Shown here piece by piece: positions 1,810 through 7,158 of a stretch of 7,158 nt of DNA. The notes under the pieces were generated by a model that saw nothing but the letters and a program-made list of their open reading frames with translations, was not told the DNA's origin and ran no database searches. Positions within the stretch are counted from its first letter, which is position 1. Each line of letters opens with the position of its first letter. The position numbers and the translations under genes were made by a program. Source of the stretch: Opitutaceae bacterium (GTDB taxonomy: Bacteria > Verrucomicrobiota > Verrucomicrobiae > Opitutales > Opitutaceae); contig JAISAX010000803.1 of NCBI GenBank assembly GCA_031266495.1, forward strand, positions 1 through 7,158, written 5' to 3'.

Positions 1810-2934
1810 TCAAAGCGACACCACCGCGCCACTGCGGGCGGAGGCATAGACGGCATTGACGAGTTGCACTGCGGCGCGCCCCGCCGCGGCATCGACGAGC
1901 GGACGCCCGCCCGTGCGGATGGCCCGGATAAAATCACGAAACTGCGCCCGGTGCGCATCGCCCCACACCCAGTCCGACCCCGCCCCGTCGCCCGCCCCGC
2001 TGCCGGCCCCCGGCACCGGAGCAGCCGCCGCATGGCTCACCGCCGACTTCGTGCCGCCGGTCGCCACCTGCAGGGCATGCGCCGTCGCATGGCCGCCGGA
2101 AAGCGTTTCGCGGCCCTTGATCGCGAGCGTGTGCAACTCGTCACCCTCGATGATCGCCGTCCCCCCGGTGCCGCTGACCTCGATGCGCGCCGCGAAACCC
2201 GGATACGTTGACGTGCTCGCCACCAGCGAACCGATGGCGCCGTTGGCAAACGTCAAGGTCGCCGACACGACATCCTCGACCTCGATCCGCTCGTGGGCCG
2301 CCGTCCGCATCTGCGCGTAAACCGACTTCACCGGACCGCACAACCAGAGCATCAGATCGAGCGTATGGATGCCCTGGTTCATGAGACACCCGCCGCCGTC
2401 CAGTTCCCAGGTGCCGCGCCAGTCGCCGGAGTCGTAATACTCCTGGGTGCGATACCAGGGGATGCGCACATCGGCGAGAATCACCCGCCCGAGTTCGCCG
2501 CGCGCGATCTTGCCCTGAACAAGCTGCGACGCCGGGTCGAACCGGTGCTGGGAAATCACCCCCAGCAACCGACCCGCCGCCAGCGCGGCCCCGGCCAGCG
2601 CGTCGCACGCCCCCACCGAGACATCCATCGGCTTCTCCACCATCACATGCTTGCCCGCCGCCAGCGCCTCCGCGCCCAGCCGCGCATGCAGGCCGCTGGG
2701 CAGACAAACCGTCACGGCATCGATCTCCGGATCAGCCAGCAACGCCTCCCAGCCGATCGTCCCGAGGCCGAACTCCGCCGCCAGCTTTTCCGCCCGTCCG
2801 GGCACTTCGTCGCAGCAACAGAGCAAGCGGGCCTCACCCGGAAGCCCCTGCAAGGCCTTGACCTGAGTCGGGGCGATTGAACCGCAACCAACGAGAGCGA
2901 AAGAGACCGGCAGCCCGGCGGACGCATTTTTCAT
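1810..2934 (-). CDS. Gfo/Idh/MocA-family NAD(P)-dependent oxidoreductase
   Basis: A 374-residue cytoplasmic dehydrogenase of the glucose-fructose oxidoreductase / inositol dehydrogenase family, which oxidises or reduces sugars and sugar derivatives with NAD(P). The N-terminal Rossmann fold starts with VGCGSIAPTQ (15-24). The family's EKP signature is Glu100-Lys101-Pro102, whose Lys is the usual catalytic base. The C-terminal substrate domain carries DWRGTW-LDGGG-MNQGIHTLDLMLWL (171-197), with conserved His190 and Asp193. The end (HRAQFRDFIRAIRTGGRPLVD...) is typical for the family. An Ala/Gly-rich stretch at about 300-320 (GAGSGAGDGAGS) looks like a loop insertion. The ATG at 2934 places the Rossmann motif near the N-terminus; the frame is open 51 codons further but that part has no family match and runs into the divergent gene. 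The stretch before the ATG is pyrimidine-rich without Shine-Dalgarno. Substrate is unknown; the divergent SDR gene suggests sugar or uronate metabolism. Confidence 0.92.
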   Translation of the reverse strand: MKNASAGLPVSFALVGCGSIAPTQVKALQGLPGEARLLCCCDEVPGRAEKLAAEFGLGTIGWEALLADPEIDAVTVCLPSGLHARLGAEALAAGKHVMVEKPMDVSVGACDALAGAALAAGRLLGVISQHRFDPASQLVQGKIARGELGRVILADVRIPWYRTQEYYDSGDWRGTWELDGGGCLMNQGIHTLDLMLWLCGPVKSVYAQMRTAAHERIEVEDVVSATLTFANGAIGSLVASTSTYPGFAARIEVSGTGGTAIIEGDELHTLAIKGRETLSGGHATAHALQVATGGTKSAVSHAAAAPVPGAGSGAGDGAGSDWVWGDAHRAQFRDFIRAIRTGGRPLVDAAAGRAAVQLVNAVYASARSGAVVSL

Positions 2935-3059
2935 AAAAAAAGGGGAAAGAGATGAAAAGAGGTGGGTGTTTTGACGCCGCAGACAACTGAAAATTGATTC
3001 ACAACAGGATTCTGTGCGCGAACAAGACGCCCGGCCAGCCTGCCCCGCACCCATACCAG
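2935..3059. promoter_or_regulatory. Shared upstream region of divergent oxidoreductase genes
   Basis: A 125-bp gap must hold the promoters for both the Gfo/Idh/MocA gene (minus) and the SDR gene (plus). The left half is clearly more AT-rich than the flanking genes. The best plus-strand candidate is TTGACG at 2971-2976 with TTGATT 17 bp downstream (2994-2999), which is a weak -10 match. No convincing minus-strand promoter or palindromic operator was found. Confidence 0.35.
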
Positions 3060-3845
3060 ATGAACACCACCCACTATCTGACCACACTCTTTTCCCTCGA
3101 AGGCCGCGTAGCCGTCGTCATAGGCGGCACCGGCGAACTCTGCGGAGCAATGGCCGAAGGACTGGCCGGCGCCGGCGCCCGCGTCATCCTCGCGGGCCGC
3201 AACCAGGAAAAAGCGCAAGCCCGCATCGACCGGATCACCCGGCAAGGCGGCGCCGCCACCTTCATTGCCACCGAAGCCAGCGACAAGACCCGGCTCGAAA
3301 CCCTGCTCGCCAGCGTGCTCGCCAGCCACGGGCAAGTTGATATTGTCGTCAACGGAGCCGGCATCAACTCGGCCACCCCCTTCCTCGAAATAACCGAAGA
3401 AGAGTGCGACCACATCCTCCGCGTCAATTACAAGAGCGTATTCCTCGGCTGCCAGGTATTCGGCAAGTACCTGCTGGACCGCGGCCAGGGCGGCACCATA
3501 ATCAACCTCGGCTCCATGTCCGGCCTCGTCCCCCTCTCGCGAGTATTCACCTACTCGGCCAGCAAAGCGGCCGTGCACAACCTCTCGAAAAACCTCGCCC
3601 GCGAATGGGCTCCGCAAGGCATCCGGGTCAACACCATCGTCCCCGGCTTCTTCCCCGCCGAACAAAACCGCAAAGTCCTCACCCCCGGGCGCGTCGCCTC
3701 TATCATGGGCCACACCCCCATGAAACGCTTCGGGGAAGCGCGCGAACTCATAGGAGCGACACTCCTCCTCTCCAGCGAAGCCGGCGCCTTTATCACCGGC
3801 GCCGAGATCGTGGTCGATGGCGGATATCATGCCATGACGATTTGA
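3060..3845 (+). CDS. SDR-family oxidoreductase, D-mannonate oxidoreductase-like
   Basis: A 261-residue classical short-chain dehydrogenase/reductase. The catalytic set is complete: Asn123 in RVNYKS, Ser152 in GSMSG, Tyr165 and Lys169 in YSASK. VNGAG (97-101) corresponds to the usual NNAG. The cofactor loop reads [13 protein letters not shown] (20-32), lacking the usual Thr and with Cys28 where Gly is normal. The GAMAE context, [13 protein letters not shown] (195-207), HTPMKRFG (218-225) and VVDGGYHA (251-258) resemble SDRs annotated as D-mannonate oxidoreductases, which interconvert D-mannonate and D-fructuronate in hexuronate breakdown. That substrate is an inference. The ATG at 3060 gives a normal N-terminus; a TTG 22 codons upstream is less likely. 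No Shine-Dalgarno. It diverges from the Gfo/Idh/MocA gene, so the two may be co-regulated. After the stop lie a T9 tract (3851-3859) and a weak A/T hairpin (3862-3880), not a convincing terminator. Confidence 0.9.
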
Positions 3846-3878
3846 TAATGTTTTTTTTTGCGAAAAAACTCCGGTTTT

Positions 3879-3908
3879 TCATATTGCAAACAGCGCAATC
3901 AGTATAAT
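3879..3908 (+). promoter_or_regulatory. Sigma-70-type promoter for the coiled-coil/HTH gene
   Basis: A perfect -10 box TATAAT (3903-3908) stands 18 bp after TTCATA (3879-3884, four of six bases of TTGACA) in an AT-rich pocket of an otherwise GC-rich sequence. Transcription would start near 3914-3916, only about 7-9 bases before the ATG at 3923, giving an almost leaderless mRNA. The start site itself is inferred. Confidence 0.6.
3883..3899. promoter_or_regulatory. Inverted repeat between -35 and -10: candidate operator
   Basis: ATTGC (3883-3887) and GCAAT (3895-3899) are perfect inverse complements separated by 7 bp and fill most of the promoter spacer. A protein bound here would block RNA polymerase, so this is a plausible repressor or autoregulation site. 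Five-base arms are short, and chance cannot be excluded. Confidence 0.4.
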
Positions 3909-3922
3909 TGTTCGCCTCCGTT

Positions 3923-4360
3923 ATGGTAATACAGAAAATCAAGGAACTCGAAGAACTGAAAGCCCGCGCCGCCAAACTGGCGGCCACCATCGAAGCCGAG
4001 CGCACCGCCGAACTGGCGTCGCTGCCAGGCAAATATGGTTATAGTGATATCAACGAATTCATCAAGGCGCTGAAACAGGCCATTGGTGTTCGTGGCACCG
4101 GAGCCCGCAGAGGCCGCAAGCCGGGCAAGGTCGCCAAGGCGCCCAAGGCCGCCGCCACCGGCAAGCGCACCCGCGCCAGGATCACCCCCGAGATCAAGGA
4201 GCAGGTGAAGGCCGCGGTGCTTGAAGGCAAGAGCGGCAGCGAAATTGCCGCCGCGTTCGGCATCTCGCTCCCCAGCGTGCAAAACATCAAAAAAGAATTC
4301 GGACTCGTGAAAGCCCGAGAAGCCGCTCCCGCCGAGGGCGCTGCTCCCGCCGCTTCCTGA
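3923..4360 (+). CDS. Small DNA-binding protein: coiled coil, AT-hook-like patch and helix-turn-helix
   Basis: A 145-residue basic protein of no family I can name. Residues about 2-33 (KIKELEELKARAAKLAATIE...) are a charged heptad-like helix suited to dimerisation, recalling the H-NS N-terminus. Residues 34-55 (LPGKYGYSDINEFIKALKQAIG) form a second helical segment. Residues 62-69 (RRGRKPGK) look like an AT-hook or H-NS-type minor-groove loop within a Lys/Ala/Pro-rich linker. Residues 87-128 (ITPEIKEQVKAAVLEGKSGSEIAAAFGISLPSVQNIKKEFG) are a clear helix-turn-helix of the Hin/transposase OrfA kind, followed by an Ala/Pro-rich tail. I infer a nucleoid-associated or global regulatory protein in the cytoplasm. 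The ATG at 3923 is preferred over the in-frame TTG at 3908, which is part of the -10 box. It has its own promoter, candidate operator and terminator, so it is monocistronic. Confidence 0.85.
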   Translation: MVIQKIKELEELKARAAKLAATIEAERTAELASLPGKYGYSDINEFIKALKQAIGVRGTGARRGRKPGKVAKAPKAAATGKRTRARITPEIKEQVKAAVLEGKSGSEIAAAFGISLPSVQNIKKEFGLVKAREAAPAEGAAPAAS

Positions 4361-4399
4361 ACATTGATATTCCGGCAAGTTTTCATTGTTTTTCCTCCG

Positions 4400-4440
4400 G
4401 CGCTCCGCGGTTTTTTTTCCGCGGAGCGCTTTTTTATTTT
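4400..4440 (+). terminator. Strong intrinsic terminator
   Basis: A perfect 11-bp GC-rich stem, GCGCTCCGCGG (4400-4410) with CCGCGGAGCGC (4419-4429), encloses a loop of eight T residues and is followed by T6-A-T4 (4430-4440). It lies 40 bp after the stop of the coiled-coil/HTH gene and separates it from the aminotransferase gene. Confidence 0.93.
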
Positions 4441-4503
4441 GCGGCAAACCGCCGGCGGGCGTTGGTGGAGAGAAGGCCGCTTTTCCGGCGACCCCTTTGA
4501 TTC

Positions 4504-5427
4504 ATGAGCACACCCTTGCCTTTTATACAGGCCAACACCAACGGACGGCTCCACCCGGCCGACGAACCCACCATCACGCCCCTCAACCGCGGCTACCTCT
4601 ACGGAGACGCCATTTATGAAGTATGGCGCACCTATGACGGCGTCCTGTTCGCCTGGGAAGAACACTGGCAACGACTGGAACGCTCGGCGGCGGCGCTGCA
4701 CCTCACGCTCCCCCTATCGGCCGGCGCCACCCTCGGCGAACTCCGGAAAACGGCCAACGCCTATCGAGCCGCCAGCCAGGAGCAAGGCGACCTCTACCTG
4801 CGCCTCCAGATAACACGCGGCGCAGGCCCCATCGGGCTCGACACCACGCTGGCCGACCGGGCGGATTTCGTGATCCTCGTGCAACCCGTGCCGAAACTCA
4901 CCCCCGCGCAACTCGCCACCGGCCTGAAACTCTCGCTCGCCACCCGCCTGCGCCGCAACCCGCCCGACGCCCTCAACCCCGCCTGGAAAACCGGCAACTA
5001 CCTCAACAACATCCTCTGCCTGCGCGAGGCCCGCGCCCGCGGGGCGGACGAAGTTGTCATCACCAACCAGCGCGGCGAGATCACGGAAGCCGCCGTGAGC
5101 AACATCGCCTTCGTGCGAGACGGCGAACTGGTCACCCCGCCCCTGGAAGCCGGCATCCTCGCCGGCATTACACGCGGACTACTCTTCACCGGCATCGCCG
5201 CGCAGGCCGGAGTCAGGATCCATGAAAAAATGATCCGGCCCGCCGACCTCGCCGACATGGACGAATGCTGCCTGCTCTCCACGACCAAGGACCTGCAACC
5301 GGTCGGCGCGATCGACGGACACCGTTACCGGACCGGCACGGATACCGTGACACGCCGGCTAAAGACCGCCTTCGCCGCCCACGCGCGCGGCGAGGCCGAC
5401 CGACGGCGGCAAGAACTGGCCGCCTGA
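4504..5427 (+). CDS. Class IV PLP-dependent aminotransferase (branched-chain / D-amino acid aminotransferase-like)
   Basis: A 307-residue fold type IV aminotransferase. The N-terminal motif RGYLYGDAIYEVWRTYDG (29-46), EEHWQRLERSA (52-62) with Arg57, RLQITRGAGPIGLD (100-113), the Schiff-base Lys162 in WKTGNYLNNI, Glu195 in EITEAAVSN (binds the PLP ring nitrogen) and LEAGILAGITR (214-224) are all present, so it should be active. Members include branched-chain aminotransferase (IlvE), D-amino acid aminotransferase and aminodeoxychorismate lyase (PabC). RGYxxGDxxYEV points to the first two; RGxGxxGLD is seen in IlvE-like enzymes. The usual Gly after GD is Ala36. Substrate cannot be decided, so no symbol is given. 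The C-terminal tail (ARGEADRRRQELAA) is charged and extends past the domain. The ATG at 4504 fits the family; there is no Shine-Dalgarno. A strong terminator upstream implies its own promoter, which I cannot identify. Confidence 0.92.
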   Translation: MSTPLPFIQANTNGRLHPADEPTITPLNRGYLYGDAIYEVWRTYDGVLFAWEEHWQRLERSAAALHLTLPLSAGATLGELRKTANAYRAASQEQGDLYLRLQITRGAGPIGLDTTLADRADFVILVQPVPKLTPAQLATGLKLSLATRLRRNPPDALNPAWKTGNYLNNILCLREARARGADEVVITNQRGEITEAAVSNIAFVRDGELVTPPLEAGILAGITRGLLFTGIAAQAGVRIHEKMIRPADLADMDECCLLSTTKDLQPVGAIDGHRYRTGTDTVTRRLKTAFAAHARGEADRRRQELAA

Positions 5428-5457
5428 CCGCCAGAGTCGACACCTCGCCGTCGTCCG

Positions 5458-5667
5458 GCGTCCCGTTTGCCCATTCCCCCCGGGGGGAATGCCTGCGCCG
5501 CGTCCGGTTTGAGGTTTCCCCTGCGGGGGAAACCTTGTCCGGCGTCCGGTCCGGACCTTCCTCCGCGGGGGAAAGCCTGCCCGGCAACCGGTTTGCCGTT
5601 TCCCCCGAGGGGGAAAGCCTCCCTTGCGTCCCGCCCGGCCCTTCCCCCGCGTGGGAAAGGCCGGATT
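5458..5667. repeat. Array of five 42-bp tandem units, each with a GC-rich palindrome
   Basis: Units start at 5458, 5500, 5542, 5584 and 5626 with an exact 42-bp period. Each begins GCGTCC or a variant and carries a TTCCCCC-GGGGGAA palindrome centred at 5481.5, 5523.5, 5565.5, 5607.5 and 5649.5. Unit 1 is a perfect 20-bp palindrome (5472-5491). Unit 2 has 10-bp arms AGGTTTCCCC and GGGGAAACCT around TGCG (5512-5535). Unit 4 has 8-bp arms (5599-5616). Unit 3 is less perfect. Unit 5 pairs 13 of 15 positions (5635-5664). The array fills most of the 393-bp gap between the aminotransferase and exosortase genes. The remaining 153 bp (5668-5820) show only a small TTTTC/GAAAA hairpin (5666-5677) and no clear promoter. 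All frames here give 14-residue repeats because 42 is divisible by three; these are not genes. Role unknown: REP-like element, protein-binding site or mRNA structure. Confidence 0.9.
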
Positions 5668-5820
5668 TTCGGGAAAAGCGAGCTATGGGCACAACATCGA
5701 TTAGACCCGGTCGCCACACCTCCACACCCCGAAGCTTGCACCTGACGCCATTCTGCGGCTGACTGGTCGCTTTCCCGGTACCATTCCGTTCTACGCACAC
5801 CCGTTCACGATTGCCCGTCC

Positions 5821-6855
5821 ATGCAGACCATTCTCAAAAAAACCGCCGCCACACTCACCCCCGGTTTCCTCTGCGCGCTGCTCGTGGCAGCGGCGTTCAT
5901 GGGCTTCATTGCCTGGGACCAGTCGCACTGGTGGAGGCAGAAGGAAGACTACGGATTCGGCTGGCTCGTGCCGGCGTTTGTCGCCTTTGCCGTTTATGAC
6001 CGCTGGCCGCGCATCAAGACCGCCGCCGCCGCGTGCATGGCGCCGCGGAGCCCCCGCGCCACCGGCGGCGCCCGGATCACGCTCGCCGTCGCATTCACGC
6101 TCTCGGCGCTATTCGGCATCCTGCTGTTTTTTGCCGGAGCCTTTTACCGCGCCGGAGCCGGCGCCTCGTATCCCGGCACGCTCGCCATCACGCTCGGCAG
6201 CGCCGGCATCCTCTTTGCCCTGCTCTACCTCAACACCCCCGCCGCCCCGTCCGCCACGCCCTCCCGGCTACTCGACGACGCCCGCGTGCAACTCCTCGCC
6301 CTCTTCGTATTTCCCGTGCTCGTCTGGCTGGTCTCCGCGCCGATGGTCTCCGTCGTGGAAAACAACCTCAGCCTCTTCCTCCTCAACCGCGTGACGTCGG
6401 TCGTGTTTTTCGTATTCGACATCCTCGGGCTCCAGATCGAGCAGCAAGGCAACGTGCTCGTCCTGCCCAAAGGCCAGGTCGGCGTGGCCGAAGCCTGTTC
6501 CGGCATCCGCTCGCTCACCGGCTGCCTCTTTGCCGGCTCGTTTCTCGCGGCGGTGTTCCTGCACAAACTCTGGAAAAAAATCGCGCTGGTCGGCTGCGCC
6601 ATGCTCTTCGCCTTTTTCACCAACCTGCTGCGCGGCACATTCCTCACCGCCTGGGCCTACAATTACGGACCCGAAGCCATTGAAGGCACCGTCCACGACA
6701 CCGCCGGCTACGCCGTTCTCGGCCTGACGGTCATCGGCCTCCTCTGCCTCCTCCCCCTCTTCAACCTGAAGATCAGCTTCTCCGACGACGACGCGGGCAA
6801 CAGCGGCGACGACAACGGCAGCAACAACGCAGACGGCCTCGCCCCGACCCAATGA
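5821..6855 (+). CDS. Exosortase/archaeosortase family protein
   Basis: A 344-residue polytopic inner-membrane protein with about eight or nine hydrophobic segments (roughly 14-33, 45-59, 86-108, 119-138, 157-178, 190-205, 234-249, 254-270, 297-313). The exosortase triad is visible: Cys226 in VAEACSGIRSL, Arg271 in FFTNLLRGTFL and His292 in VHDTAGYA. The upstream motif GNVLVLPKGQVGV (210-222) and the N-terminal YGFGWLVP (44-51) also fit. Such enzymes are thought to cleave the C-terminal sorting signal (PEP-CTERM and relatives) of exported proteins and hand them to the cell surface. No target protein with such a signal is complete in this window, and the exosortase subtype cannot be assigned. 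The last 25 residues form an unusual Asp/Asn/Gly-rich hydrophilic tail (SDDDAGNSGDDNGS...). The start at 5821 gives a normal N-terminus; no Shine-Dalgarno is present. Confidence 0.93.
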   Translation: MQTILKKTAATLTPGFLCALLVAAAFMGFIAWDQSHWWRQKEDYGFGWLVPAFVAFAVYDRWPRIKTAAAACMAPRSPRATGGARITLAVAFTLSALFGILLFFAGAFYRAGAGASYPGTLAITLGSAGILFALLYLNTPAAPSATPSRLLDDARVQLLALFVFPVLVWLVSAPMVSVVENNLSLFLLNRVTSVVFFVFDILGLQIEQQGNVLVLPKGQVGVAEACSGIRSLTGCLFAGSFLAAVFLHKLWKKIALVGCAMLFAFFTNLLRGTFLTAWAYNYGPEAIEGTVHDTAGYAVLGLTVIGLLCLLPLFNLKISFSDDDAGNSGDDNGSNNADGLAPTQ

Positions 6856-6918
6856 AGAATGAAGAATGGTCCGGTCAGCCGCACCACAACCGCAGTTCCG
6901 GCAATTCTTCATTCTGCA
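6853..6918. repeat. 15-bp inverted repeat overlapping the exosortase stop codon
   Basis: TGAAGAATGAAGAAT (6853-6867) matches the inverse complement of 6904-6918 at 14 of 15 positions, with a 36-bp GC-rich spacer. The left arm includes the TGA stop, and the arms are themselves built from a TGAAGAA/TTCTTCA direct repeat, with one more ATTCTTCA at 6918-6925. It could form a long hairpin protecting the mRNA 3' end. There is no T-tract, so it is not a standard terminator. Confidence 0.7.
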
Positions 6919-6931
6919 TTCTTCACTGATG

Positions 6932-7158
6932 TTACGCGGAAGCCCAAGAATGGAGGTATTGGAGGTATACCTCCTCTTTCTTTATAATCTCAAACGCCAC
7001 CGGAATTGACACGTTCTGGCTGACATAAAGCGCATTGAGCAGATTGATTCCTTTGACTGCCCTGTTCTTGCAATGGTCAAAATGCCAGCAGATAATCTCA
7101 TTCTCATCCGTCCACTCCTTCTCTTGTATCGTATCGTCAAATATCAGGCACCCTTGCT
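6932..7158 (-). pseudogene. Truncated DDE transposase fragment (enters from right edge)
   Basis: The minus strand encodes 74 residues up to a TAA at 6932-6934, with the gene's beginning beyond the window. The segment CLIFDDTIQEK...DENEIICWHFDHCKNRAVKGINLL...VSIPVAFEIIKK matches the first catalytic-Asp region (DDT) of an RNase H-fold DDE transposase from the IS4-like superfamily; the exact IS family is not decided. Full-length relatives continue for well over 100 residues past this point to the later catalytic Asp and Glu. Here the match ends near residue 60 and the frame closes after 14 unrelated residues. The fragment is clearly lower in GC than its neighbours, consistent with horizontal origin. 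I infer a decayed insertion sequence whose 3' part was lost; a programmed frameshift is less likely because no continuing homology is visible in other frames. Confidence 0.75.
6961..6974. repeat. Perfect 14-bp palindrome at the transposase break point
   Basis: GGAGGTATACCTCC is a perfect palindrome, preceded by a second near-copy of its left half (GGAGGTATT, 6952-6960). It lies where the transposase homology ends, so it may mark a deletion or insertion junction. Confidence 0.7.

Follow-up and report, generated by a model that had tools for sequence, protein, structure and literature searches.

The window analyzed here is the whole stretch of 7,158 nucleotides, and its features are presented in Table 1. 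A class IV aminotransferase gene is followed on the same strand by an exosortase gene, and an array of five palindromic units lies in the gap between them. The aminotransferase scores below the NCBIfam cut-offs of the named subfamilies, and of the 15 NCBIfam exosortase/archaeosortase models listed, the exosortase exceeds the cut-off of one, TIGR04178, and falls short of the other 14. Other ORFs give matches to DAHP synthase, a Gfo/Idh oxidoreductase and an SDR oxidoreductase, and one more encodes a small protein whose weak HTH match does not reach the Pfam cut-off. The gap between this HTH-like gene and the aminotransferase gene holds a hairpin (GCGCTCCGCGG...CCGCGGAGCGC) with a T-rich loop and a T-run tail, which is mostly conserved in the Opitutaceae strain TAV5 and looks like a real terminator. 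A partial ORF that runs off the window end resembles an IS701-family transposase; its score lies below the family cut-off, as expected because it is a fragment.

Among the best 80 of the 148 relatives of the aminotransferase, names are mostly from the Opitutaceae or Opitutae, with an amino acid identity of 88% in TAV5 and of 77% in its congener Geminisphaera colitermitum TAV2 (genome G001). The host is close to TAV5, a termite-gut strain.

Table 1. Positions of the window features and of the 21-bp-period arrays of genome G217 (window positions unless a locus is named; palindrome centres are given as the base right of the centre).
Feature	Position	Strand	Remarks
Gap with hairpin before aminotransferase gene	4361..4503		
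Class IV aminotransferase gene (upstream neighbour)	4504..5427	+	Pfam Aminotran_4, E 1.5e-53
Intergenic slot	5434..5718	.	blastn: flanks align to TAV5, slot does not
Unit 1	5455..5496	+	Palindrome ATTCCCCCC/GGGGGGAAT centred at 5482
Unit 2	5497..5538	+	Centre 5524; strongest single-unit hairpin (-23.4 kcal/mol, z -3.41)
Unit 3	5539..5580	+	Palindrome centre 5566
Unit 4	5581..5622	+	Palindrome centre 5608; second small hairpin predicted in linker
Unit 5	5623..5664	+	Palindrome centre 5650
Small extra palindrome	5666..5677		TTTTCGGGAAAA
Exosortase gene (downstream neighbour)	5821..6855	+	Pfam Exosortase_EpsH, E 1.3e-46
Partial IS701-like ORF	6932..7156	-	Runs off window end
G217 21-bp arrays	L132:13029-13470, L218:231-440, L221:138-380, L224:15795-16112, L225:1131-1433, L227:3506-3711		TRF

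The 42-bp array

The preliminary description of this DNA reported five palindromic units of 42 bp between two genes, with palindrome centres exactly 42 bp apart, and both statements were borne out by TRF, an ungapped family search and shuffles. TRF reports a period of 42 (4.2 copies, 68% matches, 0% indels) at 5455-5631 and, as an alternative, a period of 84 (2.2 copies, 78% matches, 1% indels) at 5477-5659; the 42-bp spacing is also obtained from the ungapped family search. The array itself, previously placed at 5458-5667, has to be moved to 5455-5664, where the repeated stretch actually lies. The aminotransferase stop (5427) is 27 bp upstream of the array. At the other end, contrary to what had been thought, the array stops short of the exosortase gene, leaving 156 bp before the exosortase ATG (5821).

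Each 42-bp element consists of an inverted repeat of about 18-22 bp and a linker around GCGTCCGGTTTG. The units are degraded copies that align gap-free in the 42-bp register with pairwise identities of 57-78%. Within the repeated stretch, lag 42 gives 113 matches out of 168 positions and lag 84 gives 94 out of 126. Although lag 84 is slightly better, an ABAB order of the units is not clear, because units 1 and 4 are the most similar pair (78%). The array and its palindromes are beyond chance: the best-lag identity in the slot is 54% (at lag 84), which none of 2000 dinucleotide shuffles reached (shuffle maximum 43%), and at least five loop-free palindromes were found in 4 of 2000 dinucleotide shuffles of the slot. 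The helical phasing of the units (42 = 4 x 10.5) is a matter of arithmetic only. A small extra palindrome (Table 1) is located about 21 bp, i.e., half a unit, past the last array centre.

In terms of sequence maintenance, 84% of the cells pair in the five window units, and two-sided changes are present in 3 of 9 pairs, against 0-1 when the partners are slid; 19 of 500 shuffles were as high in this window-only control. When the three units of a related array in genome G224 (described below) are added, two-sided changes are present in 5 of 9 pairs, against 0-2 with slid partners. None of 500 shuffles then reached the covariation score and the cells, and 64 of 500 reached the number of such pairs, in a control that is inflated by relatedness and in which one G224 row runs beyond the array into the adjoining gene. 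Some paired changes preserve the palindrome, with modest shuffle support.

Folded singly as RNA, units 2 and 5 are clearly better than shuffles, unit 4 weakly so, and units 1 and 3 are not; two G224 units are no better than shuffles either (z 0.44 and 0.72). The predicted unit stems have 6-11 pairs and loops of 4-6, formed on palindromes that are loop-free. The whole slot as RNA yields -149.8 kcal/mol (z -3.67) on the plus strand and -156.6 kcal/mol (z -2.84) on the minus strand, and its minimum-energy fold has the units paired with one another instead of five separate hairpins. When 5300-7158 was scanned for terminators and promoters, neither kind of site came up within the array, and the exosortase gene had no promoter-like site ahead of it.

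The slot in close relatives and the search for related repeats

A blastn comparison of the window with a 20-kb region of TAV5 gave two aligned blocks, 1810-5433 (87.9%) and 5719-6850 (92.8%), while the left 1.8 kb of the window has no alignment within that region. Between the blocks, the window has 285 bp including the array, and TAV5 has 143 bp. In TAV5 the slot sequence is composite and palindromic (GTGGCACGGGC/GCCCGTGCCAC), and its fold is a single long hairpin (-80.5 kcal/mol, z -8.29). In counts where one palindrome may be included more than once, its core pattern occurs 45 times in 380 kb of TAV5, 18 times in 224 kb of G224, and 93 times in 1.3 Mb of other relatives. This repeat and the window array share the orthologous slot and a strong hairpin, but their sequences are unrelated, and the TAV5 arms are inverted whereas the window units run head to tail. 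In TAV2, another gene lies behind the aminotransferase gene (by eye), and the DNA after the stop folds little better than shuffles (z -0.95). The window array is absent from the orthologous locus in both TAV5 and TAV2, the two closest relatives looked at. Hence, the slot can accept hairpin repeats, but conservation at this place does not extend to the window repeat.

Relatives of the repeat were searched for in the DNA of 252 family genomes. With 3 candidates scored in each genome, copies that are weak or single could have escaped the search. BLAST matches with E<=0.001 were obtained in 4 of the 252 genomes. In three of them the match is single, 34-37 bp long, and TRF shows no array. The fourth (G224:C658) is a three-unit array with a 42-bp period, with 112 bases aligned and a BLAST E of 9.6e-7 (about 2e-4 when multiplied by the 252 genomes). 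The consensus units of the two arrays are identical at 31 of 42 positions, compared with a maximum of 29 in 20,000 shuffles considering all rotations and both strands. The G224 array starts directly after the stop codon of a gene resembling adenylate cyclase (by eye only), and its orientation relative to that gene is opposite to that of the window array.

One of the three single matches, in genome G021 (L086:1501-1537), has 86% identity over 37 bp to the last window unit (E 1.5e-5) and spans one CTTTCCC...GGGGGAAAG palindrome; by sequence, it might be a lone relative of the window repeat.

The remainder of G224 presents short or weak matches only, both by BLAST and by model search. Neither TAV5 nor TAV2 has a convincing copy by these methods, the best BLAST E values being 0.128 and 0.098, respectively. 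None of the other five sequence sets in which it was counted, about 2.27 Mb, contains the exact core TTTCCCC-N2-6-GGGGAAA. Covariance model R1, built from six dimers (four from the window and two from G224), scores 89.9 bits on G224 by construction. Over the 252 family genomes it found 8 others at 24-27 bits, no more than chance at E<=0.05; over 384 class genomes, a sample that repeats a few family members, it yielded matches in 4 genomes at E<=0.005 against about 2 expected, none of which is a related array. One R1 class match, in G580, is a 21-bp array of different sequence. A model search of four genomes yielded one further weak place in G224 (E 0.2, not tandem) and three places in TAV5 with E of 1-1.6.

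A spaced pattern of two 10-mers 42 bp apart, with at most 2 mismatches, was also applied to the 252 genomes, with 14 matches in 12 genomes. The control pattern read backwards had even more matches, 28 in 24 genomes, and nothing can be read from the count alone. Two of the 14 matches are the known G224:C658 array, and another two (G224:C360 and G217:C114) are inside other tandem arrays; these are no proof of a preference for 42, because the search favours a 42-bp period. BLAST of plasmids with the window array and the G224 array gave no match at E<=0.01, and two exact patterns had no match in viral contigs. No description of this repeat, or of 21-bp or 42-bp arrays in Verrucomicrobia, was found among the listed titles and abstract openings of open-licence papers.

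The array had been proposed to represent a lineage-specific family. What stands of this proposal, which is weakly supported, is the related 42-bp array in one of the 252 family genomes; a convincing copy in the two closest relatives, or a match that holds up at class level, does not accompany it. The contrary outcome, a one-off duplication, was half borne out: the array is not conserved at its locus in those relatives, yet it is not plainly one-off, because a related array exists in G224. In the genomes searched the array is sparse, rather than demonstrably genome-wide.

Nature of the array

On balance, we lean towards reading the array as a non-coding, REP-like intergenic hairpin array in a repeat-prone slot. 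This reading starts from what is observed, i.e., the array, its palindromes and paired changes, its location, a different hairpin repeat in the TAV5 slot, and one related array elsewhere. Speaking against it are the low number of copies found, the single units that fold no better than shuffles, the pairing of units with one another in the slot fold, the modest shuffle controls for paired changes, the opposite orientation in G224, and the absence of terminator-like sites and of the known REP tags. As to transcription, folding in the cell, effect on expression and mode of spread, we infer the following. A 42-bp element would have come to sit behind the aminotransferase gene and would have multiplied in tandem via slippage or unequal exchange, after which the units would have diverged through point changes, some of them paired, with the palindrome kept. 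The array may be transcribed with the aminotransferase message, and the transcript may fold into strong GC-rich stems, with either one hairpin per unit or the pairing between units predicted in the minimum-energy fold. Such stems could hinder 3'-5' exonucleases, reduce read-through into the exosortase gene, or both. If the array acts at all, it most likely would do so by giving the aminotransferase message a 3' region rich in stems.

A resemblance to REP elements had been suggested from the start, and the results support it: the array is intergenic, palindromic and at the 3' end of a gene, in a slot held by another palindromic repeat in TAV5. Palindromes at a 42-bp spacing, in intergenic DNA and 27 bp after a stop codon, make it REP-like in the wide sense. 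The narrower classes fit less well. The GTAG superfamily has an unpaired GTAG at the stem end, and there is no GTAG or CTAC in the five units. CGTC REPs, according to PMC3733652, have a stem of 8-9 bp, a loop of 4-5, a CCA-like tail and an unpaired CGTC directly at the stem end, and occur mostly as head-head dimers, head-to-tail dimers being negligible. In the window, CGTC is present in four of the five units, yet 8-10 bases from the stem; the predicted stems of 6-11 pairs with loops of 4-6 are followed by no CCA tail (by eye), and all five units are head-to-tail.

Like REPs and BIMEs, the window array consists of short GC-rich palindromes that are intergenic and close behind a stop, can be clustered, and occupy a slot whose content varies among relatives. 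Unlike them, it carries no GTAG tag, has CGTC off the stem, and has loop-free palindromes in strictly head-to-tail order. Moreover, high copy number is a REP hallmark, whereas the window repeat is known from one array plus one G224 array. Unit 1 carries ATTCCC...GGGAAT, as does the dRS3 consensus. However, the central length and the flanks differ, and the motif is in unit 1 only. The dRS3 repeats of Neisseria are assigned to CGTC-1 elements in PMC3733652. REPs mobilised by a RAYT flank the gene of this Y1 tyrosine transposase. Y1_Tnp matches were found in all three genomes tested (19 matches), and the 12 of these 19 loci that were compared had no array match better than E 0.8.

Several repeat kinds coexist in the family, as Opitutus terrae is described, in PMC3733652, as highly enriched in GTAG repeats, and G224 has three arrays (L141:3050-3137, L201:252-342 and L205:3812-3904) with a period of 32-33 bp, palindrome GTAGGGCAAGCGTCCCGCTTGCC and GTAG at one end (by eye), which are probably classical GTAG REPs.

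The serious rival is a one-off local minisatellite, i.e., a GC-rich palindromic stretch duplicated by slippage, with no function or family and a chance likeness to G224. We consider it possible, if doubtful. An array missing from the locus in TAV5 and TAV2, without a convincing match in either genome and with a relative in one of 252 family genomes, is what it would predict. On the other hand, the G224 match of 31/42 at an equal period exceeds 20,000 shuffles, and paired changes are present among the units. In addition, the units are separated by at least 32 substitution steps without an indel in the 42-bp register, compared with 31 substitutions and 5 indels in the noncoding flanks against TAV5; this hints at a constraint on unit length, although the numbers are small and some of the flank indels are in homopolymers.

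A phased operator array is improbable. Under this explanation, the palindromes would be duplex sites of a dimeric protein, five on one face of the DNA (42 bp = 4 helical turns), whose cooperative binding would control the exosortase gene or organise the DNA. Loop-free palindromes in an exact 42-bp register, the lack of indels between units and the same register in G224 would all agree with such a role. Nevertheless, TAV5 has no array before its exosortase gene, in a gene region that is 93% identical, the G224 array sits behind an unrelated gene, no regulator was identified, and the units are only 57-78% identical.

A protein-coding repeat of 14 residues (42 = 14 codons) is very unlikely: five of the six frames run through the array without a stop, but open frames are likely at 72% GC, the two of these five frames that were searched have no homologue at E<=1, variation across codon positions (12/7/12) is not concentrated in a single one, and TAV5 has the flanks without the array. 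Least credible of all is a known special element (CRISPR, integron attC or an Rfam RNA family), which the regularly spaced short palindromes recall, since what lies between the palindromes is conserved, unlike the unique spacers of a CRISPR, no Rfam hit reached the gathering score, and no cas or integrase family is among the eight window ORFs tested; as stated earlier for this DNA, there is no evidence here for a CRISPR, an attC site (judged by eye only) or a canonical terminator.

The array looks like one of the hairpin-forming intergenic repeats that bacteria commonly have; its sequence is rare, and no description of it was found. At present the result is mainly the annotation of one intergenic repeat, ordinary in kind and new in sequence. 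Should it function as a 3' hairpin array, then one slot holds different hairpin repeats in two closely related bacteria, and nature would provide a test of whether REP-like repeats act as interchangeable RNA elements or as sequence-specific sites.

Other arrays with 21-bp and 42-bp periods

A 272-kb sample of G217, which a 100% match identifies as MAG Umea3_bin-4024, has six places with degenerate tandem arrays of 21-bp period (Table 1), mostly differing in sequence; those at L132 and L224 belong to one family and run in opposite orientations. L132 came from the 42-bp pattern search, and the other five are in regions picked blindly. Lag counts in G217 gave 11 places each at lags 21 and 42, against 5 at the other lags shown. 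In some of these arrays one frame is open throughout, and coding is possible for some of them. The same TRF filter found no 21-bp arrays when applied to TAV5 (380 kb), TAV2 (100 kb) and the surroundings of the loci of 80 relatives (1.3 Mb).

A broader idea is that some intergenic tandem arrays of the Opitutaceae and their relatives form one class, in which the unit length is fixed at whole helical turns (21 or 42 bp) and the sequence is free at each locus. Its members would be the window array (42 x 5), two in G224 (42 x 3 and 42 x 6.2), the six 21-bp arrays in G217, and one in G580. We regard this as a long shot. A fixed step with free sequence, if true, would point to a phase-dependent protein scaffold or to a fixed-step copying mechanism, and real phase-locking would be a new kind of DNA organisation in Verrucomicrobiota. 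The 21-bp arrays of G217 may be a more interesting lead than the window array.

The second G224 array with a 42-bp period (G224:C360, L131:305-565) has 6.2 copies with 83% matches, a different sequence, and also inverted repeats. It lies behind the 3' end of a gene resembling UDP-glucose dehydrogenase (by eye), and a search of the 252 genomes found, besides the array itself, two short matches (27 and 43 bases). Arrays of 21-bp period with palindromic units are also present at L140:9743-9837 in G224 (GGCTCCTTTTGGGGAAAGGAG, 4.5 copies) and at L242:1486-1584 in G580 (ACCGGGATGACCTGTCCCACA, 4.7 copies).
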